DNA from: Longimicrobiales bacterium
GTDB taxonomy: Bacteria > Gemmatimonadota > Gemmatimonadetes > Longimicrobiales > Gaopeijiaceae
Length of the DNA: 64,000 nt
Assembly: GCA_951828585.1 (NCBI GenBank)
Contig: OX639991.1
Span: 2,264,576-2,328,575, forward strand
Direction of reading: 5' to 3'
Part shown: in pieces, positions 6,201-50,030 of the stretch
How the letters are laid out: each line of letters starts with the position of its first letter
Numbering within the stretch: the stretch's first letter is position 1
Translations under genes and position numbers: made by a program
The notes under the pieces: generated by a model
The model's database searches: none
The model's input: the letters and a program-made list of their open reading frames with translations, nothing else
Told to the model about the DNA's origin: nothing

Positions 6201-6260
6201 CGTGGACTGGAAGTGTTGTTCAGTCGCGGGCTTCCGGGCCCGGAAGTCTGGCGGCGGTAG
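3227..6260 (+). CDS. LRR lipoprotein with degenerate metalloprotease-like domain, frameshifted
   Basis: The protein starts with a lipoprotein signal (lipobox LAAGC) and a Big_2-like Ig domain (about residues 35-120). About eleven plant-type leucine-rich repeats follow, with the consensus LTGPIPxELGxLxxLxxLDLxxN. The C-terminal half resembles exported zinc metalloproteases that carry HELGHNxSLRHAPCG. Here the aligned segment (about 5514-5568) reads VEFGFNMSLQSAPCG, so all three histidine ligands are gone while DGSIGAWGYD and WISDYHF are kept. The frame breaks at the A6 run 4049-4054: upstream codons run in one frame to about 4054, and the repeat pattern resumes one base later and continues to 6260. 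One extra A explains this. The gene is either a recent pseudogene or carries a sequencing indel. The likely role is binding rather than catalysis. Confidence 0.8.
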
Positions 6261-6298: not shown

Positions 6299-6471
6299 AG
6301 TGTTTTCCAACCCGGACATGATCATGAACGAGCCGGGGGGGAGGGGCCGAGGTTGGGGGGTGTGATGGTGAGGGGTGGATGGAGGTTGGGATGGTGGGGT
6401 GGGGGAGGGGGCGGCGCAAGGGCCGCCAGCCCCGAGGCGAGCGGAGCGAGCCGAGGGGCGGGCGGGGCCGG

Positions 6472-7758: not shown

Positions 7759-8921
<1,163 letters not shown>

Positions 8922-9055
8922 TGGCTACGCGGCATCTCTTGCTCCAGACCCGCTCGCACTGGAGCTGCGACTCGCCCCGCCGGCTTGCGACATGGATACT
9001 CACTTCCCGTTGGAAACCGGCTCCCCGCTCATGATCATTTCTCATTGGACAACGC
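8922..9055 (+). other. Structured 3' region after IS110 gene, variable between copies (copy 1)
   Basis: The region holds a hairpin with arms GCTCCAG (8941-8947) and CTGGAGC (8959-8965), and a smaller one at 8974-8984. Compared with copy 2 it has one indel and six substitutions, all within 8939-8981, including a four-base block change (CGCC to ACTG). The flanking sequence on both sides is identical. The stem arms are conserved. It may be the 3' end of the IS110 element and a candidate bridge-RNA locus. Confidence 0.45.
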
Positions 9056-9061
9056 TCCGAC
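9056..9061. repeat. Target-site duplication (right), mobile unit copy 1
   Basis: TCCGAC matches TCCGCC at 6293-6298 in five of six bases. A single mismatch suggests an older insertion than copy 2. Confidence 0.55.
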
Positions 9062-19854: not shown

Positions 19855-20027
19855 AGTGTTTTCCAACCCGGACATGATCATGAACGAGCCGGGGGGGAGG
19901 GGCCGAGGTTGGGGGGTGTGATGGTGAGGGGTGGATGGAGGTTGGGATGGTGGGGTGGGGGAGGGGGCGGCGCAAGGGCCGCCAGCCCCGAGGCGAGCGG
20001 AGCGAGCCGAGGGGCGGGCGGGGCCGG

Positions 20028-21314
20028 TCATGCTGCGGGGTTCAGCGCCTTGGCGATGAGGTGGAAGAGCGCCTTGCGGGCCCGCTGGACCTCCTGGCCC
20101 GCCTTGAGGCTGTCCACGGCGTGCGCCGCGGCGTCAATCTGCTCGAAGGTGATGCCGGGCTTCAGAAAGCCGTCGGCCCCGGGCAGCGATCCGAGCTTTT
20201 CGTACGGGGTCATGACCAGCTCCTGGGGGTACTTCCTGCGGCGGTGCCCGTTCGCATCCTCGACCTCGACCGCGAAGAGGCAGGTGCGGTGATGGTTGAG
20301 AAAGGGCGAGAGATGGTCGCGCAGGAACGCGTCGGCATCCGGTGCCAGAGACTCCGGGATGTGGCTGCGCCCCAGCCACCGGCGTACGACGTTGCCGTTC
20401 TTGGACTCGACCAGCGCGTTGTCGTTCGAGCGCCGGGGCCGCGACTTCGTGAACTCTTCGACGTGCAGCTTGTTCAGCATCTCCGCGACCCGGTGGTTGA
20501 TGTACTCCGACCCGTTGTCGGAATGGAAGGCCAGGACGCGGAAGGGGAACGCGCCGACGAGCACCTCGAGCACGGGGACCATGAACTGCTCGGTGATCCG
20601 CCGAACCGACGCAAGTTGTTGGTACTGCGTCACTTCGTCGACCATGTTGATCACGTAGGCCCCCTTCTCGCCGTCGCGGTCGCCGCTGTGCACGGTGTCG
20701 ACCCGCACGAAGCCCGGGCGGCCCTCCGGCCGGGGCCTGCGCCGCTGCCCGATCGGCGACGACGAGCCCCGCGTCGCGCGGTACGTGGTCCGGGCACGCC
20801 GGTACGCCCGGCGGGCACGCAGGTTGTAGATGTGGCCGTTCGAAATCCCCGCCAGGCGCTCGAAGCGCTTGTCGCCGAAGACATGGTACATGCGCCACAG
20901 GATCCTCTTCGTCGCCGGTCCCGAGAGCTGGCCGAAGGCCTCGTCCACCTCCGCCAGCAGTATCGCGTCAGCGGTCGTGTAGACCGTGGCGAAGGGACGC
21001 GAAGGAGGGCGCAGCCGGTGGTCGCGGATGCGGCCCGTGCGGCGCTGCTGCCTGATCAGCCGCGTCAGCTGGGCGTCCGAGTAGCCGGTGACCTTGGCGG
21101 CGTACTTCCTGACCAGGCCCTTCCCGGCCCTCGACAGGCCGAAGTGGTAGCGGAACCGGACCAGCGTCCGCTCAATGAACGCGTACGCCGCCTCACGGTC
21201 GTGGGGGGCGATGTCCGCCCCCTCGCTCCCGCCGAGGAAGGCGCGGATGTCGTCGACGGTGCGAATCCGTTCGGTGCTGAGTGTCACGATCATGCTCCCA
21301 TGATCTGCTCGCAC
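20028..21314 (-). CDS. DDE/rve integrase-type transposase (copy 2)
   Basis: This protein has the same 428 residues as the gene at 6472-7758, with the same Asp-Asp-Glu residues in VDTVHSGD, FHSDNGSEY and LVESKNG. One silent base differs (21186, C instead of T). The reading frame is intact, so the unit may be active. It is transcribed against the IS1380 transposase and divergently from the IS110 gene. Confidence 0.86.
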   Translation of the reverse strand: MRADHGSMIVTLSTERIRTVDDIRAFLGGSEGADIAPHDREAAYAFIERTLVRFRYHFGLSRAGKGLVRKYAAKVTGYSDAQLTRLIRQQRRTGRIRDHRLRPPSRPFATVYTTADAILLAEVDEAFGQLSGPATKRILWRMYHVFGDKRFERLAGISNGHIYNLRARRAYRRARTTYRATRGSSSPIGQRRRPRPEGRPGFVRVDTVHSGDRDGEKGAYVINMVDEVTQYQQLASVRRITEQFMVPVLEVLVGAFPFRVLAFHSDNGSEYINHRVAEMLNKLHVEEFTKSRPRRSNDNALVESKNGNVVRRWLGRSHIPESLAPDADAFLRDHLSPFLNHHRTCLFAVEVEDANGHRRRKYPQELVMTPYEKLGSLPGADGFLKPGITFEQIDAAAHAVDSLKAGQEVQRARKALFHLIAKALNPAA

Positions 21315-22477
<1,163 letters not shown>

Positions 22478-22610
22478 TGGCTACGCGGCATCTCTGCTCC
22501 AGACCCGCTCGCTCTGGAGCCGCGACTCGCCCACTGGGCTTGCGACATGGATACTCACTTCCCGTTGGAAACCGGCTCCCCGCTCATGATCATTTCTCAT
22601 TGGACAACGC
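22478..22610 (+). other. Structured 3' region after IS110 gene, variable between copies (copy 2)
   Basis: Hairpin arms GCTCCAG (22496-22502) and CTGGAGC (22514-22520) are conserved with copy 1 while the loop base next to the arm differs. A second hairpin, GCCC-ACT-GGGC (22529-22539), replaces the weaker one of copy 1. All differences from copy 1 lie in 22495-22536. Confidence 0.45.
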
Positions 22611-22616
22611 TCGGGG
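22611..22616. repeat. Target-site duplication (right), mobile unit copy 2
   Basis: TCGGGG is a perfect repeat of 19849-19854. Confidence 0.82.
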
Positions 22617-29763: not shown

Positions 29764-29830
29764 TATATGAAACTATATGAATGAAACAGTCAGATGGATA
29801 TATGATTGTATATCGCTAATCGTGCCTTTC
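29764..29830 (+). promoter_or_regulatory. AT-rich repeat region before propeller array
   Basis: This is a local AT-rich island with three near-repeats of TATATGA (29764, 29774 and 29794) between the epimerase-like gene and the first propeller gene. It may be a promoter or binding-site array. It overlaps the most upstream possible start of the next gene (ATG 29777), which makes that start doubtful. Confidence 0.35.
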
Positions 29831-31117
29831 CGGGCGCGGGGGCCAGGGAGGTGGGGTTGTGGGCCGCGCCGCCGCCGTGGGGGGAGATGCAGGACTCCGG
29901 TCACGAAATCGGCGCGGAAGGCCGGCTTCGTCCTCGTCATTCTCGCCTCCACCCTGCCAACCGCCTGCAGTCCGGACACCCACTCTGCCCCTGGCGATCC
30001 GTCCCCCGACGGTGTCACCACCACGATCGATACCGTCGACGGTGTCGTCCACGTCGCCAACACCGGCGACCCTCCCCAGTGGCAACTCACCCGGATCGCC
30101 TCGATCGGCCCGAAGTCCCTCACTGACGACGGCTCGCTCGACGAGTTCGGCCGCGTGTACGACCTCGCCCTCGGGCCCGACCAATCCGTGTACGTGGCGG
30201 ACGGGTTGAACAACGAAATCCGCGTCTTCGGCCTGGACGGGTCCCACCGGTTCACCTTCGGACGGAGCGGGGAAGGTCCGGGCGAATTCGCTCGCGCGTA
30301 TTCGGTGGTGTGGCTGGGTGATCGACTGCTGGCCCTGGACACCGAACAGGGTCGTATCAGCGAGTTCACGGCCGAGGGCGAGTACCTCGGCCAACGGCGG
30401 ATCCGGGGTGGGATGAGTGGCGGCGAGGGATGGGTTCGCTTCTGGCGAGTAGATACCGACGAGGCCTACTACCTCACGCGGGCCCTCGCGCCGGCGCCCG
30501 GCAGGTGGTCCGAGTTCGTCGGAGTGGACAGCCGGGGCGAAACGGGAGATACCCTTTTGCAGCTGGCGGGGCCGAGCGCGGCCACGATCACGTGCGAGCC
30601 CAGCAGCGACCGCAGCAGCTTCTTCGGGATCCCCTTCGGCGCGAAACTCGTGCAGCGTCCCGGCCCCGGCGGCGTGATGTACTCGGCCCTGACCGACGCC
30701 TACCGCATCGCGCTCACGTCGACGACCGACGATACCGTTCGCGTGATCGAACGCTCGCTCCCCGCCGAGCCCATCTCCGACGAGGAATGGGACGACGGCA
30801 ACGCCAGGTACCGGGCCCTCCGCGACACTTTTCCGCTCATGCGGTGTGATCCCGCACGTCCCCCACGTCCCGGCGCCAAGCCCTTCATCGAGGAGATCGA
30901 CATTGCCTCTGACGGCACGCTGTGGGTCGAAGTCATCCGCGAGGGCGGGAACCGATGGGAGGTGTTCGACTCCGACGGCCGGCTGCTGGCCAACCTCCCG
31001 GCTCCGCCACGAGGCCATCTGCCCCCCGCGATCGGCACGGATCATGTGCTGACCGTGCGCAGGGGGGACTTCGATCTGGAGCATGTGGACGTATGGCGGA
31101 TCGACCGGGGCTCGTGA
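29777..31117 (+). CDS. Six-bladed beta-propeller lipoprotein (subfamily A), paralogue 1
   Basis: The mature part starts after a lipobox (LPTAC) and has a Thr-rich linker, then TIDTVDGVVHVANTGDPPQW, a motif shared with the copies at 31237, 38114 and 39469. NHL-like blades follow (DLALGPDQSVYVADGLNNEI, RVFGLDG, FGRSGEGPGEFARAYSVVW). The family (PF17170-like, six-bladed beta-propeller) is expanded in Bacteroidota and Gemmatimonadota; its ligand is unknown. The true start is unclear: the frame is open from ATG 29777, but 40 residues of basic, low-complexity sequence precede the hydrophobic segment and no good ribosome-binding site is visible. Confidence 0.8.
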   Translation: MNETVRWIYDCISLIVPFRARGPGRWGCGPRRRRGGRCRTPVTKSARKAGFVLVILASTLPTACSPDTHSAPGDPSPDGVTTTIDTVDGVVHVANTGDPPQWQLTRIASIGPKSLTDDGSLDEFGRVYDLALGPDQSVYVADGLNNEIRVFGLDGSHRFTFGRSGEGPGEFARAYSVVWLGDRLLALDTEQGRISEFTAEGEYLGQRRIRGGMSGGEGWVRFWRVDTDEAYYLTRALAPAPGRWSEFVGVDSRGETGDTLLQLAGPSAATITCEPSSDRSSFFGIPFGAKLVQRPGPGGVMYSALTDAYRIALTSTTDDTVRVIERSLPAEPISDEEWDDGNARYRALRDTFPLMRCDPARPPRPGAKPFIEEIDIASDGTLWVEVIREGGNRWEVFDSDGRLLANLPAPPRGHLPPAIGTDHVLTVRRGDFDLEHVDVWRIDRGS

Positions 31118-31143
31118 GTGACAACCGGCGGGCCGTTTGAGTG

Positions 31144-31157
31144 TGTCCTTGAGTCAG
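31144..31157. promoter_or_regulatory. Palindromic motif upstream of propeller paralogue 2
   Basis: TCCTTGAGTCAGGA is a near-perfect palindrome 93 bp before the ATG at 31237. An almost identical palindrome (CCTTGAGTCAAGG, 39378-39390) lies 91 bp before paralogue 7. The rest of the two leaders is not obviously similar, so the motif may be a shared operator. Confidence 0.5.
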
Positions 31158-31236
31158 GACCCGAACGGACTCGGGGACCAACGCACACCGCCGACGCTCT
31201 CGGTCCAGCGCCGGCGCCTCCAGCGAAGGAGCAACC

Positions 31237-32453
31237 ATGAACGCTCGCCCGCGACCGCCGCGCACCCTCCTCCCAGCCCCGTCATCCTCGCGGCCATCCT
31301 AACCGTCGCCTGCGGCCTGGACTCCCCCGCCAACAGCGGCAACCTCACCACCACCACCACCACCACCACCATCGACGGCGTCATCCACGTCACCAACACC
31401 GGCGACGCCCCCGAGTGGCACCTCACGGAAGTCGTCTCCATCGGCCCGAAGTCCATCACCGAAACCGGCTCTCCCGACGAGTTCGGCGGTGTACGCAGCG
31501 TTGCCCTGGGTCCCGACGACGCCCTGTACATCGCGGATCTCGTCAACCACGAAGTCCGCGTCTTCGGCCTGGACGGCGCTCACCGCCGCACCTTCGGCCG
31601 CGAGGGAGAGGGGCCGGGCGAGTTCGCCTCACTGCACTCGATCACCTGGGCCGGCGACCGGCTGCTGGCGCTGGACTATGTCATGGGCCGAATCACGGAG
31701 TTCTCGGCCGAGGGCAATGCGCTCGGTCAACGGCGCATGCGGGGCCGGATCGGGGGGTCGCCGCTGCTGTTCCGGTTCTTCCCGGTGGGTCCCGACGAGG
31801 CCTATGCGATGACCTACATCGTCGCCGAGACGCGGCGGGGCCTCATGTTCGCCGGCCACGACAGCCGGGGAGAGACGGGGGACACCCTGCCCCTGCTGAG
31901 GTCGGAACAACCCTCGGGCGTCGAATGCGAGTACAACGAGGGATGGGTCAGCTTCTTCGATATTCCCTTCGCTCCGAGCCTGGTCCAGCACCCCGGTCCC
32001 GGCGGCGTGATGTACATGGCCATGAGCAACGACTACCGCGTCGCCGTCACCCGGGGCTCCGACACTCTCCGGGTCATCGAACGCACCCTGCCCGCCGAAC
32101 CCATCTCGGACGATGAGTGGGAGACGGGCAATCAGGAATTCCGCGACTTCATCGCCGAAACGCCGGGCGCCGAATGTGACCCGCGACGTCCCATCCGGGC
32201 GGACGCGAAACCCTTCATCGCGGACATCTACCTCGCTCCCGACGGCAAGCTGTGGGTCGAAGTCCTCCGTACCGCCGGCAACCGCTGGGAACTCTTCGAC
32301 ACCGAGGGCCGCTTGCTCGGAACCTTCCCGGTCCGCCACCGCAAGGAAGACGCCGCCCCCGCCTTCGGCCCCGACCACCTCGTCACGATCCGCCGGGACA
32401 GCCTCGACCTCGACCACGTCGACGTCTGGCGCATAGACCCCGGCAGGCAGTGA
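31237..32453 (+). CDS. Six-bladed beta-propeller lipoprotein (subfamily A), paralogue 2, probable frameshift in signal peptide
   Basis: The propeller body is intact: TIDGVIHVTNTGDAPEWHLT, VSIGPKSITETGSPDEFGGV, then blades with NHEVRVFGLDG and a C-terminal LDLDHVDVWRID. The body frame is open from about 31137. The only well-placed start, ATG 31237 with GAAGGAG upstream, is in another frame. It reads MNARPRPPRTLLPAP before hitting a stop, whereas the body frame gives VILAAILTVAC, the lipobox. One missing base between about 31237 and 31290 would join them. A run of eight Thr codons (ACC repeat, 31343-31370) lies after the lipobox. Confidence 0.75.
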
Positions 32454-32581
32454 GAGCCAACGCAACCCGGACCACTCGAGCGCAGCCCAGGATAACGCCC
32501 TCCACACCGGGTAAACGCTCCTCCCCCTCCCATCGTCTCACTTCTCGAAACCACACGAGGAGACAAGGGACCGAGAGCGCC

Positions 32582-33163
32582 ATGCTCTCCGATCAAGACA
32601 TCCTGGACCTGGCCGAACGGGCCACCAAGGGGGAACGAGAGGCGCTCGGAAGGCTGGCGGGCGCCCTCCGTCCTCTCATATGCCGGTGGGCGCTGGTCAT
32701 GACCGGGGACCCCAACGACGCGGAGGACGTCGCGCAGCAGGTGCTGATGAAAATGATGACATCCATGGAGGGATTCGATGGCCGTTCAAGGGTTACGAGC
32801 TGGGTCTACCGGATCACCAGGAACGCCAGCCTGGATCACCAGCGCCGGAGGGAGCGGGAGCGACGGCTGGCCGAGAAGGCGGAGTGGCTGGCCCGGGCGG
32901 AGGCGCCCCGGCTGGACGATCCGCTGGACGACATCGAAATGAACCGAACGCTGCGACTGATTCGGACCCTGATGAGGGAGCTGTCCATGCGGCAGCGGGA
33001 GGTCTTCGACCTGGTGGATCTGCAGGGACTGGAGCCGAGAGAGGCGGCGGAGCTGCTGGAGACGAATCCGAATACGGTGCGGGTCCACCTGCTGCGGGCG
33101 AGGCGGCGGATGCGCAGCGAGATGCTGGCGCAGGGATTCGCATTCGAGAACGCGGGGGAATAA
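32582..33163 (+). CDS. ECF-type RNA polymerase sigma factor
   Basis: This 193-residue protein has region 2 (GDPNDAEDVAQQVLMKMM, then FDGRSRVTSWVYRITRNASL) and region 4 (MRELSMRQREVFDLVDLQGL followed by EPREAAELLETNPNTVRVHL). It directs RNA polymerase to a specific promoter set. The stop codon overlaps the start of the next gene (TAATG), and that gene has an anti-sigma-like layout. Its place inside the propeller array suggests that it may control the neighbouring genes; this is inference. ATG 32582 is chosen by the family N-terminus. Confidence 0.92.
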   Translation: MLSDQDILDLAERATKGEREALGRLAGALRPLICRWALVMTGDPNDAEDVAQQVLMKMMTSMEGFDGRSRVTSWVYRITRNASLDHQRRRERERRLAEKAEWLARAEAPRLDDPLDDIEMNRTLRLIRTLMRELSMRQREVFDLVDLQGLEPREAAELLETNPNTVRVHLLRARRRMRSEMLAQGFAFENAGE

Positions 33164-33618
33164 TGGATCATCGTGACGATTGGCCGGACGGGATCCTGGA
33201 GGGGGATCTCGATGCGGTTGCCGGGCGGGGCCCTGCGGAGCGGCGGAAAGCAGAGCGGATCGCCCGGGACGCGCGGAACATGAACACGGTCCTGTCGGCC
33301 ATGGCGAACCAGGTGAGCGAACGCGTTCCCACCCCGATTCATGGGGAGGCCGCGCCTGCGCGCCGCAGGTCCACCTGGAGATGGCGGACCGTGGCACCCC
33401 TCGCGGCGGCCGCCGCCATCGCGGCCCTGATCCTGGTGCGCGGTGGCGAGACGGGTGAAGAGATGGCAATCCTCATCCCCCCGCCCGAATCCCGTATTCC
33501 AAGCATGGTAAGCGAGATGGACGTGGAGGCCGACCGGCCCTTCGCGGTTTTTCCCACGAGCGATCCCGATATCGCCGTGGTATGGCTACTCAACCCACAG
33601 GAGAAGACTGATGACTGA
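33163..33618 (+). CDS. Probable membrane-anchored anti-sigma factor
   Basis: This 151-residue protein starts one base inside the sigma factor stop. It has a soluble, charged N-terminus (about 75 residues), one membrane segment (VAPLAAAAAIAALILV, about residues 83-98) and a C-terminal domain ending in VVWLLNPQEKTDD. This layout and coupling fit an anti-sigma factor that holds the sigma factor at the membrane. No zinc-binding HxxxCxxC motif is present, so it is not a classical ZAS protein. It overlaps the next gene by eight bases. Confidence 0.65.
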   Translation: MDHRDDWPDGILEGDLDAVAGRGPAERRKAERIARDARNMNTVLSAMANQVSERVPTPIHGEAAPARRRSTWRWRTVAPLAAAAAIAALILVRGGETGEEMAILIPPPESRIPSMVSEMDVEADRPFAVFPTSDPDIAVVWLLNPQEKTDD

Positions 33619-34177
33619 GATGATGACGAGGAGTATTCGATGCGTGCTGATCGGGGCGTTGGCCCTCGGGGCGCTTGCCGGTGTCGCGAATGCGCAGGAG
33701 GGTGATGAGGCTGCGCAACACATCCAAAACGTGTTGCTCACATTTCATCTGGTCCAGGCCGATGGCTTCACCGATGAGGACCCCGAGATCAGCGATGTCG
33801 TGAGCGAACTCAGGGAGATCTTCAACTTCAAGGGGTACCGGCTGCTTTCGACTTCGGTATTCAATGTCGGCTTGATACCGAACAGCTCAGGGTCCAGAGC
33901 CACCGGCGAGGGTTTGCAGAGAATCTATCCGATCGGTTTCGAGAAAGGGATGACGATCAAGGCGGACGTCAGCTCGCCGCGTTCCACGGGAGCCCTCCGT
34001 GCCACGGTGACCCTCACCGACCAGGTCAGGGAGTCGTTTGCATTCGGCGACGAGCTCCCGCTTCTCGAAACCACGGTCACGTTCCGCGATGGCCAGAGGG
34101 CGGTGTTGGGATCGGGTCCCGGCAACGCCGAAGGGGCCGTCCTCATCCTCATCGTAACCCCCAGGATCGATCCGTAG
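33611..34177 (+). CDS. Exported protein of unknown function in sigma/anti-sigma operon
   Basis: This 188-residue protein has a cleavable signal peptide (LIGALALGALAGVANAQE). The mature part has FNFKGYRLLSTSVFNV and, near the end, LLETTVTFRDGQRAVLGSG followed by LILIVTPRIDP. The last segments resemble the strand pattern of secretin-type beta domains (xTVxVxDGxxVVLGG ... LLVLVTP), but no secretin pore domain is present. The gene overlaps the anti-sigma gene by eight bases, so the three genes form an operon. It could be a periplasmic partner of the anti-sigma factor. I do not assign a function. Confidence 0.6.
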   Translation: MTEMMTRSIRCVLIGALALGALAGVANAQEGDEAAQHIQNVLLTFHLVQADGFTDEDPEISDVVSELREIFNFKGYRLLSTSVFNVGLIPNSSGSRATGEGLQRIYPIGFEKGMTIKADVSSPRSTGALRATVTLTDQVRESFAFGDELPLLETTVTFRDGQRAVLGSGPGNAEGAVLILIVTPRIDP

Positions 34178-34186
34178 CGGCGTACT

Positions 34187-35485
34187 GTGACCAACACCCA
34201 CCCCCCCACCCCCACCCTCCTGGCATCCCTGTGCCTCCTGACCCTGTCGTGCACCGACCCCACCCGGGACGCCGCCACCACCACCACCGACATCCCCCTC
34301 ACCGCCACCACCCAGCCCCTCTACACCGTCGGCGCACTCGTGGGCGAGGACTGGGAGACCTTCGGCAACGTTCGCTCGGTACAATTCGACGGCGACGGCA
34401 ACCTGCACATCTTCGATGCGGGCGCCCACCGGATCGTCGTGGTCGACGCCGAGGGCAACCACCTCCGCACCGTCGGCACCCAGGGCGAGGGTCCGGGCGA
34501 GATCGGGAACGCCCACGCCGCCGTCGTCCTCAACGACGGACAGACCGTGATCTACGACTTCGGCAATCCGGCCGCCTTCGAGATCTTCGACACAGAGGGC
34601 GAGTTCGCGCGAAGCGTGACCGCCGACGTCAACCGCGGGGTACCCGGGGAGCGGATGCATACGCTGCCGGACGGACGCCTGGTGACCATGGGCGGTCCCC
34701 AAATCCGGATGTACGCCCCGGGGGAGGCGCCCGACGATTCGGGGGAGGAGGAAGAGGAGGACCATCGCCGCGACATCGACGTCTTCTCGCTGGACGGCAG
34801 CGACAGGGTGGTCCTCTACCGCGCCTGGAACCTCCCGCCCACCGAAGCCGACGAGTCGATCGAGGGAAGTTCGGACGAGGGCGGAAGCCTGTCGATGAGC
34901 TTCAGCCGCATGCGCGAATTCAACCCCAGGCTCCTGATCGGGGTCCTGTCCGATGGCCGCGTCGCGGTGGTCGATTCGATGGCCTACGAAGTGAAGCTCG
35001 TCGCGATGGACGGCACCGTGGATGGCACAATCGAGCGACAAATCGTACCCGAGCCGGTGACCGAAGCGGTCAAGGAAGCGACCAGGGCCGCTCGCCTGGA
35101 GGGATTGGGGGAAATGACGGACGGTGGGATCCGCGTTCAGACGATAGTGGGAGACGTCAACCTGGACATACAGGAGCAGATGCGCGCGATGATGGAACGC
35201 CAGATCGAGTCGATGGTTTTCACCGAGGAGATCCCGGTGATCGCGAATCTGGCGGTCGACCCCCGGGATCGGCTCTGGATTGCGCGGATGGGTCCAGCGG
35301 GAGACGAAACCGCCGGTCCCACTGATATCATCACGGCGAGCGGCCAGTACATCGGCACCCTGCCCACCGACGGGCCGCGGATCCCGGCGGCGTTCGGCCC
35401 CGGCGGACTCATGGCCTACATCGATTCGGACGAGATGGGTGTTCAGACCGTTCGCGTGATCCGACTGGTGTCGCTCGATGGCTGA
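34187..35485 (+). CDS. Six-bladed beta-propeller lipoprotein (divergent subfamily C), paralogue 3
   Basis: This 432-residue protein starts at GTG 34187, with a signal peptide and lipobox (LTLSC). Blades are recognisable (SVQFDGDGNLHIFDAGAHRI, VVVDAEGNHLRTVGTQGEGP), but the opening motif (TATTQPLYTVGALVGEDWET) differs from subfamilies A and B. An acidic insertion (EEEEEDHRRD, about 34745-34772) and a helical segment with VKEATRAARLEGLGEM interrupt the propeller. It overlaps the next gene by eight bases, so they are co-translated. Confidence 0.83.
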   Translation: MTNTHPPTPTLLASLCLLTLSCTDPTRDAATTTTDIPLTATTQPLYTVGALVGEDWETFGNVRSVQFDGDGNLHIFDAGAHRIVVVDAEGNHLRTVGTQGEGPGEIGNAHAAVVLNDGQTVIYDFGNPAAFEIFDTEGEFARSVTADVNRGVPGERMHTLPDGRLVTMGGPQIRMYAPGEAPDDSGEEEEEDHRRDIDVFSLDGSDRVVLYRAWNLPPTEADESIEGSSDEGGSLSMSFSRMREFNPRLLIGVLSDGRVAVVDSMAYEVKLVAMDGTVDGTIERQIVPEPVTEAVKEATRAARLEGLGEMTDGGIRVQTIVGDVNLDIQEQMRAMMERQIESMVFTEEIPVIANLAVDPRDRLWIARMGPAGDETAGPTDIITASGQYIGTLPTDGPRIPAAFGPGGLMAYIDSDEMGVQTVRVIRLVSLDG

Positions 35486-36809
35486 TTGCTCCCGCTGGCG
35501 AGCCTTCCTGTCGACGCTCGCCACCGCAGCCGCGCTCGGCCTCGCCGCCTGCGGCCCCGATGCCCCGCCCGCCGGCCCGAGCGTCCAGGTGGACACCATC
35601 GGCGACACGACGATCGTCCGCACTCTGTCGGGAAGTGTCTGGGGGACGGAGGCGACGCTCGTCCCGGAAGTCTCGATCGGCGAACTCGAGGGGCGCGACG
35701 AGTATCTCTTCGGCCAGATCGGGTCGCTGGCGGTGGACGGCGACCGCAACGTCTACGTCTTCGACACCCAGGCGCTCCACGTCCGCGTCTTCGATGCCGA
35801 CGGCACTTACATCACCACGCTTGGCCGGGAAGGGGAGGGACCGGGCGAGTTCGGCCGTGCCGAGGCCATCGCCGTGCTACCCGACGGCCGTTTGCTCGTC
35901 CGGGATCCCGGCAACATGCGGGTCCAGGTGTTCGACCCCGCTTCGGGCACGGAGGAATGGGAGTACAATTCCGGCAACACCTACCGGCCCGGGGCCCCGC
36001 TGTACACCGATGTGCGCGGCCGCACATTCCTGCACCAGTCCAAGTACGACATCGTCATCGTTCTTGGCCCGGACGGCACACACTTGGATACGCTCCCCGA
36101 ACCGACGATGGACTATGAGCGAGTCATCGTCAGGGCGGAAGCGGAAAGCGGTTCGGTAACCTCGCCCGTGCCGTTCACACCCCGGTTCTTCTGGGCCGTT
36201 CACTCAAGCGGCCACTTCCTCACCGGCCTCTCCTGGGACTACCGCATCGACCTTGCCCGGCACGACGGCGTGCTGAGGATCGAACGCGCCTACGACCCGG
36301 TGCCGGTCTCGGGCGAGGAGCGCGCCTACCAACGCGAATCCCTGGTGCGGATGGTCCGTTTCAGCGTTCCGGACTGGACCTGGGACGGCCCGCGGATCCC
36401 GGACCACAAGCCGGTCTTCAACCAGCTGCTAACCGGCCGGGACGGCCGAATCTGGGTGAGACTCACGACCTCGGGACGGCGTGTCGAGAACGAGAATCAC
36501 AACCCGGAAAATCCCTTTTCGGAGCCCGTCGCCTGGCGGGAGTCGACACGCTACGACGTCTTCGAGCCCGACGGGACCTATCTGGGTGTCGTCGTGCCGC
36601 CGGATGACTTCGCCCCATCTCCCGACCCGGTCTTTGTCCGCGACCATGTGTGGGCGGTGACGGTGGACGATCTGGGCGTCCAGCGGGTGGTCCGCTACAG
36701 GATCGAGGTGGGGGGGGAGGGCGGAGACGATCGCGGGGACCGTGGCGGCGGCCGGTCTTCCTCGGCAACGTCCTTCGCCTTTCGAATGGGGTCGGATCCT
36801 TGGAAATGA
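35478..36809 (+). CDS. Six-bladed beta-propeller lipoprotein (subfamily B), paralogue 4
   Basis: This 443-residue lipoprotein (lipobox GLAAC) opens with QVDTIGDTTIVRTLSGSVWG, the subfamily B motif shared with the gene at 36867. Blades include SLAVDGDRNVYVFDTQALHV followed by RVFDADGTY and GREGEGPGEFGRAEAIAVL. The C-terminus (YDVFEPDGTYLGVVVPPDDF) is a closing blade, followed by a low-complexity Gly/Arg tail. It overlaps paralogue 3 by eight bases. The ligand is unknown. Confidence 0.85.
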   Translation: MADCSRWRAFLSTLATAAALGLAACGPDAPPAGPSVQVDTIGDTTIVRTLSGSVWGTEATLVPEVSIGELEGRDEYLFGQIGSLAVDGDRNVYVFDTQALHVRVFDADGTYITTLGREGEGPGEFGRAEAIAVLPDGRLLVRDPGNMRVQVFDPASGTEEWEYNSGNTYRPGAPLYTDVRGRTFLHQSKYDIVIVLGPDGTHLDTLPEPTMDYERVIVRAEAESGSVTSPVPFTPRFFWAVHSSGHFLTGLSWDYRIDLARHDGVLRIERAYDPVPVSGEERAYQRESLVRMVRFSVPDWTWDGPRIPDHKPVFNQLLTGRDGRIWVRLTTSGRRVENENHNPENPFSEPVAWRESTRYDVFEPDGTYLGVVVPPDDFAPSPDPVFVRDHVWAVTVDDLGVQRVVRYRIEVGGEGGDDRGDRGGGRSSSATSFAFRMGSDPWK

Positions 36810-36854
36810 CAAGCACAGTTGTCACAATGTAAAGTGTAGTTCACATGATGTGAA
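36807..36854. promoter_or_regulatory. Two inverted repeats before propeller paralogue 5
   Basis: TGACAA (36807-36812) and TTGTCA (36819-36824) form a perfect inverted repeat with a 6-nt spacer. TTCACA-TGA-TGTGAA (36840-36854) is a perfect 15-nt palindrome of the CRP/FNR half-site type. The ATG of the next gene follows 12 bp later. Binding of a regulator is inference. Confidence 0.5.
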
Positions 36855-36866
36855 AGGTCTCAGGCG

Positions 36867-38117
36867 ATGAGAACCCCTCCACTACCGCTGACCGCGTTGA
36901 CCGCCTGTGCCCTGGCGGCGTGCGCAACCGACACGGGTTCATCCGTCGCCGGATCGGACACGGTTGTCGACACCATCGGCGACACGACCGTGGTCCGCAC
37001 TCTCTCGGGCAGCCTCTGGGGCGCCGAGGCCACCCTTGTCCCGGAAGTCTCGATCGGGGAACTCGAGGGGCGTGACGAGTATCTCTTCGGCAGCATCGGG
37101 TCGATTGCGGTGGACGACGACCTGAACGTCTATGTGCTCGACGAGCAGGCTCAGCACGTCCGTGTCTTCGACTCGGCCGGAGTGTACCTGAGGACGCTGG
37201 GCAGGCGGGGGGAGGGACCGGGCGAGTTCGGCAGTGCCGAGGCCATCGCTCTGCTTCCGGACGGCCGGTTGGTGGTGCGCGATCCCGGCAACCAGCGCAT
37301 CGAGGTCTTCGGTCCAGGCGCCGGCCGGACGGAGCAGTGGGGATACAATTCGGGCAACATGTACTTCGGGAGGTCGCCGCTGGTCACTGACGCGACCGGA
37401 CGGACGTTCCTGAGCACCCGCGACCTGTCCCGGGAAGGCTTCGTCATGCACATCGTCGTGTTCGGGCCTGACGGAACGCCCGTCGACACGCTCGCCGAAC
37501 CCTCGAGCGACTACGATGCCCCTACGATGAGCGCCATGGGAGAGAGCATGTTGCTGAGCAGGGTCGTGCCCTTCAGCCCCGAATTCCTGTGGACCATCCA
37601 CCTCAGCGGTCATTTCCTGACCGGTCTGTCCGCCGAGTACCGGATCGAACTCCGCCGGGACGATGGCGTGCTCAGAATCGAGCGCGCCGGCGATCCTGTA
37701 CCGGTTCATGAGGAGGAGCGCGCCTCGACGCGCGAATTCCTTGAGGGCAGCATGCGGAACACGCAGCCCGACTGGAACTGGAACGGCCCTCCGATCCCGC
37801 AACACAAGCCGTTCTTCTACGAACTGCTGGCCGGCCGCGACGGTCGCATATGGGTGAGGCTGGCAACCGAGGCATACCCCGTCGAGAACGAGAGCTACGA
37901 CCCGGAGGATCCGTCTTCGCGCCCGGTGGTGTGGAGAGAGCCCCTCCGCTACGACGTCTTCGAGCCCGACGGGACCTATCTGGGGGTGGTCGCACCGCCG
38001 GATGGTTTCGAGTACTACAAGGCCCCCGTCTTCGATGATGACCATGTCTGGGCGGTGACCCAGGACGAACTCGGGGTCGAGCGGGTGGTCCGCTACGGAA
38101 TCGAGGTCGCCCGATGA
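36867..38117 (+). CDS. Six-bladed beta-propeller lipoprotein (subfamily B), paralogue 5
   Basis: This 416-residue paralogue of the previous gene opens with VDTIGDTTVVRTLSGSLWG after a lipobox (LAAC). Blade sequences are nearly parallel to paralogue 4: AVDDDLNVYVLDEQAQHVRV, GRRGEGPGEFGSAEAIALL and WREPLRYDVFEPDGTYLGVV. The clear similarity across the full length points to a recent tandem duplication. It has its own upstream palindromes and overlaps the next gene by four bases (ATGA at 38114). Confidence 0.86.
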   Translation: MRTPPLPLTALTACALAACATDTGSSVAGSDTVVDTIGDTTVVRTLSGSLWGAEATLVPEVSIGELEGRDEYLFGSIGSIAVDDDLNVYVLDEQAQHVRVFDSAGVYLRTLGRRGEGPGEFGSAEAIALLPDGRLVVRDPGNQRIEVFGPGAGRTEQWGYNSGNMYFGRSPLVTDATGRTFLSTRDLSREGFVMHIVVFGPDGTPVDTLAEPSSDYDAPTMSAMGESMLLSRVVPFSPEFLWTIHLSGHFLTGLSAEYRIELRRDDGVLRIERAGDPVPVHEEERASTREFLEGSMRNTQPDWNWNGPPIPQHKPFFYELLAGRDGRIWVRLATEAYPVENESYDPEDPSSRPVVWREPLRYDVFEPDGTYLGVVAPPDGFEYYKAPVFDDDHVWAVTQDELGVERVVRYGIEVAR

Positions 38118-39309
38118 GAACCCATCCCCGTCTACTGCCGACCCTCCTCGCGGCCACCCTGCCCGCCGCTTGCGCCGAGGGAGACTCCACCGCCAACCCC
38201 CACACCCTCACCACCACCTTCGACACCATCAACACCGTCATCCACGCCACCAACACCGGCACCCCCCCCGAGTGGCAACTCACCCAGGTTGTCTCCATCG
38301 GCCCCGAGTCCGTCACCGAACAGGAGACCCCGGACGAATTCGGCCGGGTCAGCGCGGCCGCCCTCGGCCCCGACGGCACCGTCTTCGTCGCGGACGCCGC
38401 CAACGACGAGATCCGCGTCTTCGGTCTCGACGGCTCCCACATCCGCACCTTCGGGCGGGACGGCGAAGGGCCCGGCGAGTTCGGAAGCATCTACTCCATC
38501 GCCTGGGTCGGGGACCGGCTCCTGACTCTCGATCCGTGGGTGGGCCGCATCGGCGAGTTCTCGGCCGCGGGCGAGTGGCTCGGCCAGAGAAGAACCGCGG
38601 GAAGCATCACCGGACCACCCACCTTCATCCGCTTCTTCCCCGTCGGTCCCAACGAGGCCTTTCTCTTTGCCTTCGGTTCCGATCGTGGCTGGGTTGGCCT
38701 CGACAGCGGTGGAGACACGGGCGACACGGTGCCCTGGGCGACCGCCCCGAATGACCTTCCGGGCCTGACCGAGACAATCCTGTGCGAGTGGGATGGGGGA
38801 GTGGGCTACTACCCGCACACGGCCGGGGCGAAGTTCGTGCAGCACCCGGCTTCCGGCGGCATCATGTACTCCGCCTGGGGGTACTTCTACCGGATTGCCG
38901 TCACGGGGCGGACGGGGACACCCTGCGCGTGATCGAGCGCGACTTGCCGACCGAGCCCATTACGGACGAGGACTGGGCTGCCGGAAGCGCGGAATTCGAG
39001 GAAGCCCGGGAGCAATGGCCGGACGCCTCCTGCAGCCCGCGCGGTTACACCCGGCCGGAACGGAGGTCCTTCATCGAGGAAATCTTCGTGGCTCCCGACG
39101 GCAAGCTCTGGGTCGAGGTCATTCGCAACGCAGGCAACCGCTGGGAGTTCTTCGATACCGAGGGGAGGCTGCTCGGTAGCGTGCCCACCGTTCCGCACAA
39201 GGAGCGCACCGTCCCCGTCTTCTACGCGGACCACCTCGTGACGATCCGGCAGGACGACCTGGATCTGGACCATGTCGACGTGTGGCGGCTGGAGCGGGTG
39301 GGGCGGTAG
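38114..39309 (+). CDS. Six-bladed beta-propeller lipoprotein (subfamily A), paralogue 6, frameshifted
   Basis: The first frame encodes a lipoprotein signal (LPAAC), TTFDTINTVIHATNTGTPPE and blades up to YFYRIAVTG, then runs to a stop at 38932. The second frame continues with GDTLRVIERDLPTEPITDED to the family C-terminus LDLDHVDVWRLE at 39307. The paralogue at 39469 is continuous across this point (YFYRIAVTAAGGDTLRVIER), so one base is missing around 38901-38916, in a G-rich stretch. It is either a recent pseudogene or a sequencing error. It shares more than half of its residues with paralogue 7. Confidence 0.78.
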
Positions 39310-39377
39310 AGCCGATAGCGGCCGTGCCGTCGCATGCCAGCGCCAGCCCCATGCAACCCGACGCCAGTTCGCTACGT

Positions 39378-39390
39378 CCTTGAGTCAAGG
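39378..39390. promoter_or_regulatory. Palindromic motif upstream of propeller paralogue 7
   Basis: CCTTGAGTCAAGG is a palindrome with a single central base. It matches the motif at 31144-31157 and lies at almost the same distance (91 bp) from the start codon of a paralogous gene. Confidence 0.5.
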
Positions 39391-39468
39391 CCCGGCTACC
39401 CTTGGAGGACTGTCCGCGCACGCATGCCCGGCCGGTCCTCCGTCCCACCACCAAAGATGGAGTCAGGA

Positions 39469-40698
39469 ATGCCCACCCGCCCTCGTTCGCCTCACGTCCC
39501 CCTCTCCCCCCTCCCCGTCACCCTCGCGGCCACCATGGCCGTCGCCTGCGCCCAGGGAGATTCCACCGCCGAGACCGGCGACCTCACCACCGCCATCGAC
39601 ACCATCAACGATGTGGTCCACGTCACCAACTCCGGCACCCCTCCCGAATGGCAACTCACCCCCGTCGTCTCCATCGGGCCCAGCTCCGTCACGGAACAGG
39701 AGACTCCCGACGAGTTCGGCCGTGTCAGCTCCGTCGCCCTCGGCCCCGACGGCACCGTTTTCGTCGCGGACGCCGCGAACCACGAGATCCGCGTCTTCGG
39801 TCTGGACGGCGCGCACCTCCGCACCTTCGGGCGACAAGGCGAAGGGCCCGGCGAGTTCACGAGCATCTACTCCATCGCATGGGCTGGGGACCGGCTTCTT
39901 GTCTTCGACCCGCCGCTGGGCCGCATCGGCGAGTTCTCGGCCGAGGGCGAGTGGCTCGGCCAGAGGACAACCACGGGAGGTCTGACCGGCAGCGGAATCC
40001 GGTTCTACACGGTCGGGGCTGACGAGGTCTTTCGCTTTGCCCTCGGTTCGGATATGGAATCCCAGTGGGTAGGCCTCGACAGCCGCGGCGACACCGGCGA
40101 CACCTTGCCCTACCTGCGGACTCCCGAGGACCTGCCCGGCGCGACCCCTGCCCTTGTCTGCCGGTACGAGGGGGGAATCGGCTTCTACCCGCACACCGTC
40201 GGAGCGAAGTTCGTGCAGCAGCCGGCGTCCGGTGGAATCATGTACTCCGCCTGGGGGTACTTCTATCGGATCGCCGTGACAGCGGCCGGCGGCGACACCC
40301 TGCGCGTGATCGAGCGTGACTTGCCGACCGAGCCGGTCACGGACGAGGAGTGGGCAGCCGGAAGCGCGGATTTCGAGGAGTTTCGGGAGCGAAGGCCGGA
40401 CGCCTCCTGCAACCCCCGGAGCTACAGCCGGCCGGAACGGAAGCCGTTCATCGAAGAGATCTTCGTGGCCCCCGACGGCAAGCTCTGGGTCGAGGTCATC
40501 CGCACCGAGGGCAACCGCTGGGAGTTCTTCGATACCGAGGGGAGGCTGGTCGGCAGCGTTCCCGCCGTCCCGTACAAGGAGCGCACGGTTCCGGTATTCC
40601 GCGGGGACTATCTCGTGACGATCCGCCAGGACGACCTGGATCTGGACCACGTGGACGTGTGGCGGCTGGAGGGGGTGGGGGGTTCCCGGCGGGAGTGA
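39469..40698 (+). CDS. Six-bladed beta-propeller lipoprotein (subfamily A), paralogue 7
   Basis: This 409-residue protein starts at ATG 39469 (GGAG six bases upstream), with a signal peptide and lipobox (AVAC). TAIDTINDVVHVTNSGTPPE, VVSIGPSSVTEQETPDEFGR and ANHEIRVFGLDG mark subfamily A. The reading frame is intact across the region where paralogue 6 is broken, so it serves as the reference copy. The C-terminus ends LDLDHVDVWRLEGVGG. It is the last propeller of the array. Confidence 0.87.
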   Translation: MPTRPRSPHVPLSPLPVTLAATMAVACAQGDSTAETGDLTTAIDTINDVVHVTNSGTPPEWQLTPVVSIGPSSVTEQETPDEFGRVSSVALGPDGTVFVADAANHEIRVFGLDGAHLRTFGRQGEGPGEFTSIYSIAWAGDRLLVFDPPLGRIGEFSAEGEWLGQRTTTGGLTGSGIRFYTVGADEVFRFALGSDMESQWVGLDSRGDTGDTLPYLRTPEDLPGATPALVCRYEGGIGFYPHTVGAKFVQQPASGGIMYSAWGYFYRIAVTAAGGDTLRVIERDLPTEPVTDEEWAAGSADFEEFRERRPDASCNPRSYSRPERKPFIEEIFVAPDGKLWVEVIRTEGNRWEFFDTEGRLVGSVPAVPYKERTVPVFRGDYLVTIRQDDLDLDHVDVWRLEGVGGSRRE

Positions 40699-47380: not shown

Positions 47381-47977
47381 ATGAAGAGCCTCCCCGAACG
47401 CATCGTGGAACACGCCCAGGCCACTCCGGAGGCCACGCCGATCTGCCCGGGCGCTCTGCTTCACCTGGGCAAGCGGGGGGCCGTGAATCAGGCGCTCTCC
47501 CGCCTGGCCCGTTCGGGCCGGCTGATGCGGATCTGCCAGGGCGTGTACATGCGCCCGATCCAGACCCGCTTCGGGCGCTGTGCACCAAGCATCCACAAGT
47601 CACTCCAGGCGCTTTCGGAGCTCTGGGGGGAGACGATCGTCCCCCATGGGGGCGGTGCGGCCAACTGGCTTGGTTTGACCACGCAGAATCCGATCCGGTC
47701 GGTCTACCTTACCTCCGGCCGCAACCGGCGATTGTACTTCGGCAAGCATCCGGTCGATCTGCGCCATGCCCCACGATGGCAACTGGCCGTCCCCCATCGG
47801 AAGGCGGGGGTGGTCATCCGCGCCTTGGCATGGCTCGGCCCGGAAGAGGTCGAAGACAGCCTCGACGCGGTGCTGCCCCAACTCTCGGAGCGAGAACTCA
47901 ACGAGCTTGCGGCCGCGCGGGCCGTCATGCCCAGGTGGTTGGCCGAGCCGTTGAGCGCGCGCCTGGCGAGTGGCTGA
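47381..47977 (+). CDS. AbiEi-like antitoxin (DUF6088-type)
   Basis: This 198-residue protein has an N-terminal winged-helix region (GKRGAVNQALSRLARSGRLM, RICQGVYMRP) and a C-terminal part with LSERELNELAAARAVMPRWL, as in AbiEi antitoxins. In type IV AbiE systems this protein represses the operon and counters the nucleotidyltransferase toxin without direct contact. It overlaps the toxin gene by eight bases. Because the toxin gene is split by IS21, the antitoxin may now be an orphan. Confidence 0.82.
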   Translation: MKSLPERIVEHAQATPEATPICPGALLHLGKRGAVNQALSRLARSGRLMRICQGVYMRPIQTRFGRCAPSIHKSLQALSELWGETIVPHGGGAANWLGLTTQNPIRSVYLTSGRNRRLYFGKHPVDLRHAPRWQLAVPHRKAGVVIRALAWLGPEEVEDSLDAVLPQLSERELNELAAARAVMPRWLAEPLSARLASG

Positions 47978-48812
47978 GACGCAGTTTCAGCGCCTGTCGG
48001 CGGAAGAGCGCCGTCAAGCCTTGCGCACTGTTCAGGCGGAAGGACCGCACCCGGCGTTCCTGTTCGAGAAGGACATCTGGGTCGTGGCGACTCTCGGCGT
48101 CCTGTTCGATGCGCCTTTCGGCCAGCGGTTGGTATTCAAGGGCGGCACCTCCCTGTCCAAGGTGTGGCGCGCCATCCGCCGGTTCTCGGAGGACATCGAC
48201 ATCACCTACGACATCCGGAGCTTCGCGCCGGATCTGGTGGCCAGCGCCAGTGACGAGGCGCTGCCGCCCTCGCGCAGTCAAGAGAAGCGCTGGACGAAGA
48301 CGATCCGTTCGCGCTTGGCCGAATGGGTCCGGGGGACCGTTGGTCCGCTCGTCGAGGAGCAACTTGGGCGCGCCGGGTTCACGGCGCACATTCGTGCGGA
48401 AGCCGAGCGGCTCTACATCGGGTACGAACCGCTGTTCGAATCGTTCGGAGCTATTCGGCCGGAGGTTCAGGTCGATTTCGGGGCACGCTCCACGGGCGAG
48501 CCGCATGCTGTCCGCGCGGTGGTGTGCGATGCCGCCGCATACCTGCCTGATATCGCGTTTCCGGAGGCACGGTCGGCCGTCATGCTCGCAGAGCGTACGT
48601 TCTGGGAGAAGGCAACGGCAATACACGTCTACTGCCTTCAGGGGCGCCGCCGGGGCGAACGATGGTCGAGGCACTGGCACGATCTTGCCCGCCTTGACGA
48701 TGCCGGAATCGCGGAAAGCGCCGTTGCCGATCGGGTACTCGCGCTCTCGGTTGCCCGCCACAAAGCCGTGTTTTTCCGAGAGAACGATTCTGGCGGCCAG
48801 CGGATCGACTAC
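47970..48812 (+). pseudogene. AbiEii-like nucleotidyltransferase toxin gene, 5' part (interrupted by IS21)
   Basis: Starting at GTG 47970, the protein has the AbiEii signature FKGGTSLSKVWRAIRRFSED followed by IDITYD, the GS-x-DxD nucleotide-transfer site, and RTFWEKATAIHVYC. In the AbiE family the toxin modifies tRNA and blocks growth during phage infection. The native sequence ends at RIDY (48812), where an IS21 element begins, and the present open frame then runs into IS sequence and stops at 48941. The catalytic core is complete, but about 67 C-terminal residues are lost, so activity is doubtful. Confidence 0.88.
48808..48812. repeat. Target-site duplication (left) of IS21 element
   Basis: ACTAC is repeated at 51779-51783. 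The empty-site fragment at 46126-46296 has a single related copy (ACTGC), which confirms the duplication. Confidence 0.85.
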
Positions 48813-49260
48813 TCCGTATTCCGCCGATGCCGATCACCGATTCCGCCATGCCGATCACCGATTCCGGGGCATGCCGATCACCTTGGAGGAGAGCGGAGGT
48901 CCATAGGGGCGCTGGGGTCGGGTTACGGGTTTGAAGTTTAGGGGTTGGAGGGGGTAGTCGTCGAGTGTGAAGGGACCGTTGGCAGTGTGTTGCTGGGACG
49001 GCCGGCGGGCCGGTTTTTCCGGAGGGGTGTAGGTAGGGCGAAGGTCTTCGGACGGCCTCTACGGCGCTCTGGAGAGCGGTTTTGCGAGGGAACCGGGCCA
49101 TTTGTCCCGGATTGGGGGGTGCGGACGGATCCGGGCCGGCCGCAACGGAACGCCCGGACGGCCGCACGGCCCGCTCAGAGCTGTCTTTCCGTCTTTTCAC
49201 CCCCGATCGCAGGGAGAGACGCGCTTCCAGAGGCATGCTTGAGCCCGGTCTCTCGGCGGA
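48813..49260. other. Non-coding left arm of IS21 element
   Basis: About 75 bp at the outer edge hold three copies of the terminal repeat (GCCGATCACCGATTCC type). The remaining 370 bp hold no recognisable gene. A GC hairpin followed by TTTTT at about 48998-49017 could act as a terminator for reads coming from the truncated toxin gene. Confidence 0.5.
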
Positions 49261-50025
49261 TCAGGCGTCGCCGGGGACGGCGTCGGCTTCCTTCGTCGAG
49301 TCGTAGAGCCTTCTCATCGATCCGCCCTTGAGGGCGATGCGGTGCGCGTTGTTGAGCAGTCTGTCGAGGATGGCGTCGCCGAAGGTGGGATCGCCGACGA
49401 CCTCGTGCCAGTGCTCGACGGGGACCTGGCTGGCCAGCAGCGTGCCGCGGCGGGCGTAGCGGTCGTCGAGGACCTCGAGGAGGTCGTGCCGTCCCTGTCC
49501 CGAGAGCGAAGCGAGCCCCCAGTCGTCGAGGACGAGGAGCCACGTCCGGGCGAGCCTCTGGATGACCTTGGGATACGACCCGTCGCCGCGGGCGAGGGTG
49601 AGTTCGTCAAGCAGGCGGGAGACGCGGTAGTAGCGCGTCGAGATTCCGGCGCGGCAGGCCTGGTGGCCCAGCGCGCACGCCAAGTAGGATTTTCCCGAGC
49701 CCGTGGCACCGCTGACGAGCACGGTTTGGCCGTCCCGGATCCACTGCCCGGAGGCGAGGCGGAGCACGAGGGATTTGTCCAGTCCGCGAGGGGCCTTGAA
49801 GTTGATGTCTTCGATGGTCGCGTCGAGGTGGAGCTTGGCGTGGCCTTTCAGTCGCTGGTAGCGGCGCTGCTTCCGTTCGGTCTTCTCGCGTTCGAGGAGC
49901 AGGGAGAGGCGGTCCTCGAAGGACAGTTCGGCGATGTCGGGCATGGCGGCCTGTTCCTGGAAGGCCTCGGCCATGCCGGAGAGCCGGAGTTCGTGAAGCA
50001 GGTCGAGGGTGGGTTGGCGAAGCAT
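49261..50025 (-). CDS. istB: IS21 family helper ATPase
   Basis: This 254-residue AAA+ protein has Walker A (LVSGATGSGKSYLACALG) and Walker B (TWLLVLDDWG) and the IstB N-terminus LRQPTLDLLHELRLSGMAEA. IstB assembles on target DNA and delivers it to the IstA transposase. The ATG at 50025 lies six bases after the istA stop codon, so the two genes form an operon. The longer open frame upstream is a shadow of istA. Confidence 0.93.
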   Translation of the reverse strand: MLRQPTLDLLHELRLSGMAEAFQEQAAMPDIAELSFEDRLSLLLEREKTERKQRRYQRLKGHAKLHLDATIEDINFKAPRGLDKSLVLRLASGQWIRDGQTVLVSGATGSGKSYLACALGHQACRAGISTRYYRVSRLLDELTLARGDGSYPKVIQRLARTWLLVLDDWGLASLSGQGRHDLLEVLDDRYARRGTLLASQVPVEHWHEVVGDPTFGDAILDRLLNNAHRIALKGGSMRRLYDSTKEADAVPGDA

Positions 50026-50030
50026 GATGG

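Follow-up and report, generated by a model that had tools for sequence, protein, structure and literature searches.

Does an extracytoplasmic function (ECF) sigma factor govern the surface proteins among whose genes its own gene lies? This question is raised by a stretch of 64,000 nucleotides from a Longimicrobiales bacterium (hereafter the window), which is part of a one-contig genome of 4.47 Mb (G000:C1:2264576-2328575). At 29777-40698 the + strand of the window encodes, in order, the propellers A1 and A2, a sigma factor, an anti-sigma factor, a small secreted protein (the third gene, after sigma and anti-sigma, here named SEC) and the propellers C, B1, B2, A3 and A4. An initial annotation had described seven six-bladed propeller lipoproteins in tandem on one strand around an ECF sigma/anti-sigma/secreted protein operon and had proposed that the sigma factor regulates the array. 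The order and the family were borne out by matches to PF17170 and to a hidden Markov model (HMM), but A3 is broken into two frames and therefore six of the seven propellers are intact. The genes downstream of the sigma promoter probably constitute an autoregulated ECF signalling operon, the outputs of which would be exchangeable propeller lipoproteins; A1 and A2 are most likely linked neighbours outside the control of that promoter. Start codons throughout are heuristic assignments.

The sigma gene (32582..33163, + strand) encodes a protein of 193 aa that contains only sigma regions 2 and 4 (Sigma70_r2, PF04542, 60.5 bits, 1.4e-16; Sigma70_r4_2, PF08281, 49.6 bits, 3e-13) and matches TIGR02937 with 100 bits. 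It is preceded by an ECF-type promoter, P_sig, of the form GGTAAACG-N16-CGTC-TCAC at 32510..32541 on the + strand. Alignment of the relatives' DNA before the sigma gene revealed a single conserved block, and GGTAAACG-N16-CGTC or a near form, a promoter of the AAC (-35)/CGT (-10) type, was found in 32 of 33 loci, among them the window. Loci were counted if they had both a sigma frame and DNA preceding it; L067, at a contig edge, and L079, in which no sigma frame was recognised, were excluded, and L038 was included. Twenty-seven of the 32 sites are exact, that of L092 has one change in the -10 element and four read TGTAAACG. The strong site occurs once in the window, and a looser GTAAAC-N16-18-CGTC is also present at 264-291, with 0.10 expected per window from shuffling. 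P_sig was also found in five of nine distant loci of the phylum. A -35 AAC, a -10 CGT, co-transcription with an anti-sigma gene and autoregulation are given as classical ECF features in the available part of PMC8103513.

The anti-sigma gene (33163..33618, + strand) shares one base of its start with the sigma stop and encodes a protein of 151 aa with a cytosolic N-terminal part and one membrane segment, as in the class I anti-sigma domain (ASDI) proteins. This segment, a run of hydrophobic residues at about positions 75-95, was assigned from the amino-acid sequence alone. No meaningful Pfam match was obtained for the anti-sigma factor. The Hx3Cx2C zinc motif is absent from all eight aligned anti-sigma factors of the window genus and present in all seven aligned distant homologues (seven of nine were taken). 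According to the accessible sections of PMC7406223, this motif is optional in the family, and zinc and non-zinc anti-sigma factors mix within groups. The C-terminal tail PDIAVVW (PDI.VVW) is common with small changes, and PD[IL] is kept in 13 of 15 rows, L041 and L026 being the ones that differ.

The genes behind the sigma/anti-sigma pair are closely packed on the same strand. The first 8 bases of the SEC gene (33611..34177; 188 aa) lie within the anti-sigma gene, propeller C (34187..35485) starts 9 bases past the SEC stop, and B1 (35478..36809) overlaps C by 8 bases. B2 (36867..38117) lies 57 bases past B1, and A3 (38114..39309) overlaps B2 by 4 bases; A4 occupies 39334..40698 with a probable start at 39469. 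A terminator scan of the region gave one match, inside A4, against 4.2 expected. The two propellers before the sigma gene are A1 (29777..31117), the true start of which is probably nearer its signal peptide at about 29890, and A2 (31137..32453), which ends 56 bases 5' of P_sig. The A3 gene consists of one gene in two pieces (frames 38114-38932 and 38782-39309), and the sequence is compatible both with a real frameshift and with an assembly error.

The position directly behind SEC is held by a propeller in other species as well. In all 27 testable named loci of two groups (20 of the window-genus type, the window included, and seven of the g18 type, with L078 as a fragment), the first matched gene after SEC encodes a propeller; L084, with 176 bases after SEC, was set aside before this count. 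L038, which stands outside the 27, also has a propeller after SEC. The genus labels of the named loci are partly deduced: contig coordinates were matched for L072, L074, L075, L078, L079, L087 and L088, and the remaining labels come from identity and gene spacing. The start of this propeller was assignable in 17 loci: in 15 of them it lies -4 to +9 bases from SEC, and in the other two 38 and 131 bases. The occupant of this slot differs among loci. C-type propellers hold the slot in the window, L062 and L085, and B-type propellers hold it in six loci. A-type propellers occupy it in L090-L094 and in six loci of the g18 type, and other members of the wider C clade do so in six loci; the occupant in L078 was not placed in the tree. 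The array may be, as the initial annotation suggested, a set of alternative surface sensors or binders, and the exchange of subfamilies at a single position from species to species is compatible with interchangeable parts. The anatomy of the locus, the conserved promoter, the conserved gene order, the turnover of the slot and the lack of a comparable site near the other sampled propellers (described below) are what the data show.

A mechanism can be proposed from this arrangement. The anti-sigma factor, encoded by the overlapping gene, would hold the sigma factor at the inner membrane, as its family suggests, until a putative envelope signal frees it. The freed sigma factor would transcribe from P_sig, yielding more sigma factor, anti-sigma factor and SEC, and presumed read-through would extend to propellers C and B1 and perhaps to B2, A3 and A4. 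The propellers would then be made on signal as envelope-bound proteins that may bind a ligand, with the paralogue in the slot behind SEC changing from species to species. SEC is probably a periplasmic regulator or sensor that would act on the anti-sigma factor through the conserved periplasmic tail of the latter, since SEC is the third member that constantly accompanies the sigma/anti-sigma pair. The propellers are probably outputs and possibly also receptors.

Several observations weigh against an operon with propeller outputs, and many of them would suit propellers that are neighbours only, that is, a hotspot of propeller paralogues formed by tandem duplication and transfer, in which the sigma operon ends functionally at SEC and the propellers are transcribed from promoters of their own. 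Members of the family occur throughout the genome, with PF17170 matches at 125 places. The window cluster accounts for six of these and is the longest run in the genome (gaps below 5 kb; a run of six or more arose in 6 of 2000 random placements); 11 other runs of three or more matches exist. SEC matches only once in this genome. A1 and A2, two of the seven propellers, lie upstream of P_sig and have no copy of it. Three sigma-70-like matches were found in the region against 1.1 expected, and a weak one (9 of 12) stands just before B2 at 36806-36835, so that B2, A3 and A4 could have an independent promoter. The orthologous loci share ancestry, and the 27 occupied slots are therefore not 27 events. 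In the Palauibacter-type loci no propeller is found directly behind SEC (six of six), and one of them, L087, has no propeller at all. For four distant sigma/anti-sigma/SEC triads (L219, L223, L225 and L226), the sequence read contains no propeller. The genus member G009 has three A-type matches and no SEC match. L079 contains no sigma frame recognised by the HMM. In L038, which lies close to a contig edge, P_sig is missing before the sigma gene; a different contig of its genome (G022) has a P_sig-like site at its edge. We nevertheless consider independent neighbours unlikely. A propeller fills the slot behind SEC in every testable named locus even though its subfamily differs, and the genes overlap or touch. 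Moreover, in five of the six Palauibacter-type loci a propeller ends just before the sigma gene, and P_sig stands directly before the upstream propeller in three of them (L071, L074 and L088), in a decayed form in L089 and not at all in L072.

Two further alternatives assign the propellers or the sigma factor a different role. The propellers may be input rather than output, binding a ligand and touching either SEC or the tail of the anti-sigma factor; the operon would then supply its own alternative sensors. In T. tengcongensis the anti-sigma factor is itself a TolB-domain protein, as reported in the accessible text of PMC3397946, and a constant SEC with exchangeable propellers would suit a fixed relay with variable receptors. 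However, no propeller is fused to the 151-aa anti-sigma factor, triads without a nearby propeller exist, and C, B1 and the rest lie downstream of the promoter, as expected of outputs; we regard a purely sensory role as improbable. It appears highly improbable that the sigma factor controls the entire propeller family of this genome in one global surface-protein regulon. In favour of such a regulon, and also of the operon with propeller outputs, strong P_sig-like sites precede a few propellers beyond the locus in two other species (L099 and L107, in G008 and G005, and L240). L240, in G008, is the only one of 21 non-locus A-type loci examined that has P_sig, L242 and L244 among these being shortened upstream by contig ends. 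In the window's own genome, a matrix of 27 sites was run over 449 kb containing 182 propeller frames. The sigma gene scored 30.8 bits and the next best site 16.3 bits; with a near-identical matrix built from 23 sites, scores of shuffled sequence extended to the 15-bit bin. A loose site at a propeller (L052/L183) reached only 9.4 bits. With one strong site among 182 frames, the visible regulon in this species is therefore the operon itself, and a global regulon was rejected as a candidate on this ground. The absence of a comparable site near the other sampled propellers also counts against the operon with propeller outputs. The strict pattern gave 38 sites in 23 genus genomes against 20 for the reversed control; 16 of the 38 are sigma promoters (17 with the contig-edge site in G022), and the remainder as a set is therefore at chance level. 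A looser form gave 14 sites in the own genome against 6 in the control. No word is common to most of the 171 stretches upstream of own-genome propellers, the best 8-mer, GGTTGTCA, being present in 9 of 171 against 1.7 expected.

These searches bear on how far the proposed regulatory link extends. It gains independent support for the genes downstream of the sigma factor, from P_sig in nearly all loci and from overlapping or near-adjacent genes, but is not supported for the whole array. A shared ECF promoter before each gene, which the initial annotation had suggested looking for, was not found: no propeller of the window has a strong copy of its own, and the strong site lies only before the sigma gene. 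A general link between ECF sigma factors and propellers was also considered and rejected, as by eye a few of the true ECF places have propellers nearby, roughly the number to be predicted from propeller density. Another ECF sigma place (899990) with propeller matches on the same strand on both sides was observed at G000:C1:893591-903299 (L166); the single SEC match of the genome lies elsewhere. A repeated palindrome-like word, TGTAAACTGCnGTTGTCAC, occurs at L215:2303 and L215:3576 in a stretch with two propellers, and a similar word at G000:C1:2596318. In L039-L042 (contigs of L080, L082, L084 and L086) a tRNA-like stretch, tRNA-Ala by eye from the alignment, lies directly before P_sig, where an upstream propeller would be.

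The propellers belong to the NHL type by profile and fold. The PF17170 (6-bladed beta-propeller) cut-off of 22.9 bits is passed by six of the seven: A1 (24.0 bits), A2 (29.5), B1 (40.1), B2 (38.6), A3 (25.3, N-terminal part) and A4 (32.3). Propeller C stays below it with 18.3 bits; a propeller HMM made from sequences of the genus, with C in its seed, gives C 349 bits. A model of A4 made from 27 sequences has a pLDDT of 86, and among solved structures it is closest to NHL six-bladed propellers, with the NHL domain of Brat at Z 19.7 and an rmsd of 4.1 over 263 residues. The division into four A, two B and one divergent C member is supported by the identities, which are 56-76% among the A members, 69% between B1 and B2, and 20-29% between C and the rest. 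In the phylogeny of the paralogues, a check that had been called for, A1-A4 fall in a single clade with support of 1.0; the tree excluded propellers with fewer than 230 aligned residues, and among the relatives, which were represented by locus genes only, also those above 520. Opening motifs are indeed kept while the blades diverge. Column identity peaks in the stretch with FGLDG..RTFGR.GEGPGE, at 0.88 against 0.46-0.83 in other 20-residue blocks of clade A and 0.62 against 0.30-0.51 over 139 own-genome propellers.

The lipoprotein assignment needs a qualification. The signal-peptide Cys is invariant in all 27 chosen aligned sequences, which comprise 21 of the 29 clade-A relatives and six window propellers (A1, A2, B1, B2, C and A4). 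A crude test found a lipobox in only 58 of the 182 propeller frames of the own genome, and the propellers of several relatives have none. These 182 frames, fragments included, were recovered with the genus HMM from 74 stretches around PF17170 places and the window, and at least 230 residues were aligned in 139 of them; an additional A-type gene was found outside those stretches. By a loose first measure, 80-223 PF17170 candidates occur in seven genus members against at most 67 in 54 other genomes of the class sample.

The tree had suggested that subfamily A is exclusive to the locus. This was withdrawn, as A-type genes occur elsewhere in the own genome and in relatives. A fifth A-type propeller (G000:C1:2211375-2212574), 56% identical to A4, lies about 80 kb from the locus without P_sig. 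In another species, an A-type propeller at a different locus (G001:C1:1406199-1407404) is 94% identical to the window A4. Because SEC is only 66-68% identical between these two genomes, recent transfer of a propeller gene between species is likely.

SEC appears to be derived from secretins. No meaningful Pfam match and no secretin family was found in 21 SEC members (21 of 22 were aligned; L038 was excluded for its long tail). A model with a pLDDT of 71 was compared with solved structures by VIA-align, in which ranks 1-25 are all secretins (GspD, InvG, pIV, PilQ, RcpA and the like) with Z from 10.2 to 7.5 and rmsd of 4.1-6.3 over 109-128 residues, the next row having a Z of 6.8. Against this origin, Foldseek returned no secretin in the top 50 from the PDB, and its best row was a designed protein. 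In distant homologues Secretin_N (PF03958) precedes the SEC-like part: among five, it exceeds the cut-off of 28.2 bits in L025 (34.6 bits), is below it in L142, L023 and L140, and was not matched in L143.

The triad of SEC, sigma factor and anti-sigma factor occurs across the phylum with a patchy distribution. SEC is present in 37 of the 200 phylum genomes drawn, with strong matches in three genera (g1, g18 and g57) of two families. At nine distant loci an anti-sigma match is adjacent to SEC in all nine and a sigma match is present in eight, the ninth (L141) being cut short. In nine longer distant stretches, L227, from another genome, has sigma and SEC without an anti-sigma match and one propeller several kb away, L224 has one propeller upstream on the same strand as sigma, and in family f9 (L220-L222) between one and three propellers are encoded divergently from the sigma gene, with no P_sig facing them. 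Propellers near some distant triads and absent at others are thus repeated but non-obligatory companions.

The relatives found with the SEC alignment comprise 33 loci, mostly from Gemmatimonadota bins, with three titled Gammaproteobacteria; they include Candidatus Palauibacter rhopaloidicola, Candidatus Palauibacter poriticola, a BD2-11 clade bin and the 'Longimicrobiales' chromosome OX638356. Most of these bins probably come from sponges, to judge from bin and species names. A wider proposal is put forward tentatively, as possible but somewhat doubtful in its entirety: a Gemmatimonadota-wide unit would consist of an ECF sigma factor, an anti-sigma factor with a PDI.VVW tail and a secretin-derived protein turned from part of a secretion pore into a sensor or co-regulator. 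Some lineages, many of them probably sponge-living, would have recruited interchangeable NHL propellers into this unit from the very large stock of paralogues in their genomes, to serve as variable receptors or binders. In the part of PMC10469786 available, Palauibacterales are reported from sponges, corals, sediments and soils, and a term search of that paper gave no mention of propellers or sigma factors. No description of the operon or of DUF5128 was found in the open-licence literature searched. From the locus an uncultured lineage gains a regulatory handle (promoter, sigma factor and probable targets) within a genome-filling propeller family of no known role, and a secretin-derived protein may have become a signalling part.

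Other elements of the window were also recorded. A 2.76-kb element with a weak rve integrase match is repeated at 99.7% identity (6299-9057 and 19855-22612) and is probably a recently moved insertion sequence. An IS21-type element with an IstB ATPase and a Mu-type transposase lies at 49261-51590; the helix-turn-helix of this transposase gives false sigma region-4 matches, with 11 equal-scoring places in the genome. A leucine-rich-repeat protein of 709 aa is encoded at 4131-6260 and an AbiEii-type nucleotidyltransferase (PF08843), possibly part of a type IV toxin-antitoxin system, at 47970-48941.

The locus resembles several known systems in part. It shares with canonical ECF/ASDI (RpoE-like) operons a sigma factor of regions 2 and 4 only, an overlapping gene for a membrane anti-sigma factor and an AAC/CGT-type promoter before the sigma gene, but here the third gene encodes an apparently secretin-derived periplasmic protein and is followed by propeller lipoprotein genes, and the anti-sigma factor lacks the Hx3Cx2C stretch kept by distant homologues. 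It does not resemble FecI/FecR-type signalling, as the sigma/anti-sigma pair is adjoined by propellers and SEC, and no TonB-dependent receptor was found among the subset of window open reading frames scanned. The sequence tGTTAC-N16-CGTC is recognised by RpoE1 of T. tengcongensis in the promoter of its own gene, and a TolB-domain protein is encoded directly downstream there, according to the portion of PMC3397946 at hand. The promoter layout (N16, CGTC) is nearly the same, but the TolB-domain protein of that system is the anti-sigma factor, whereas here the anti-sigma factor is a separate protein of 151 aa without a propeller domain and the propellers are free lipoproteins. In the VIA-align comparison, residues 37-188 of the SEC model align with domains of the secretins GspD, InvG, pIV and PilQ, and distant homologues of SEC have a short Secretin_N domain. 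Unlike secretins, SEC has about 150 residues and no PF00263 match, and the members of the window genus lack the Secretin_N part; SEC is not expected to form a pore. The propellers share the six-bladed NHL fold and the opening NHL-like repeat with the NHL/DUF5128 proteins (Brat, TRIM71 and PF17170 proteins), but here they are secreted bacterial lipoproteins that have been strongly multiplied in this lineage, some of them within an ECF operon.

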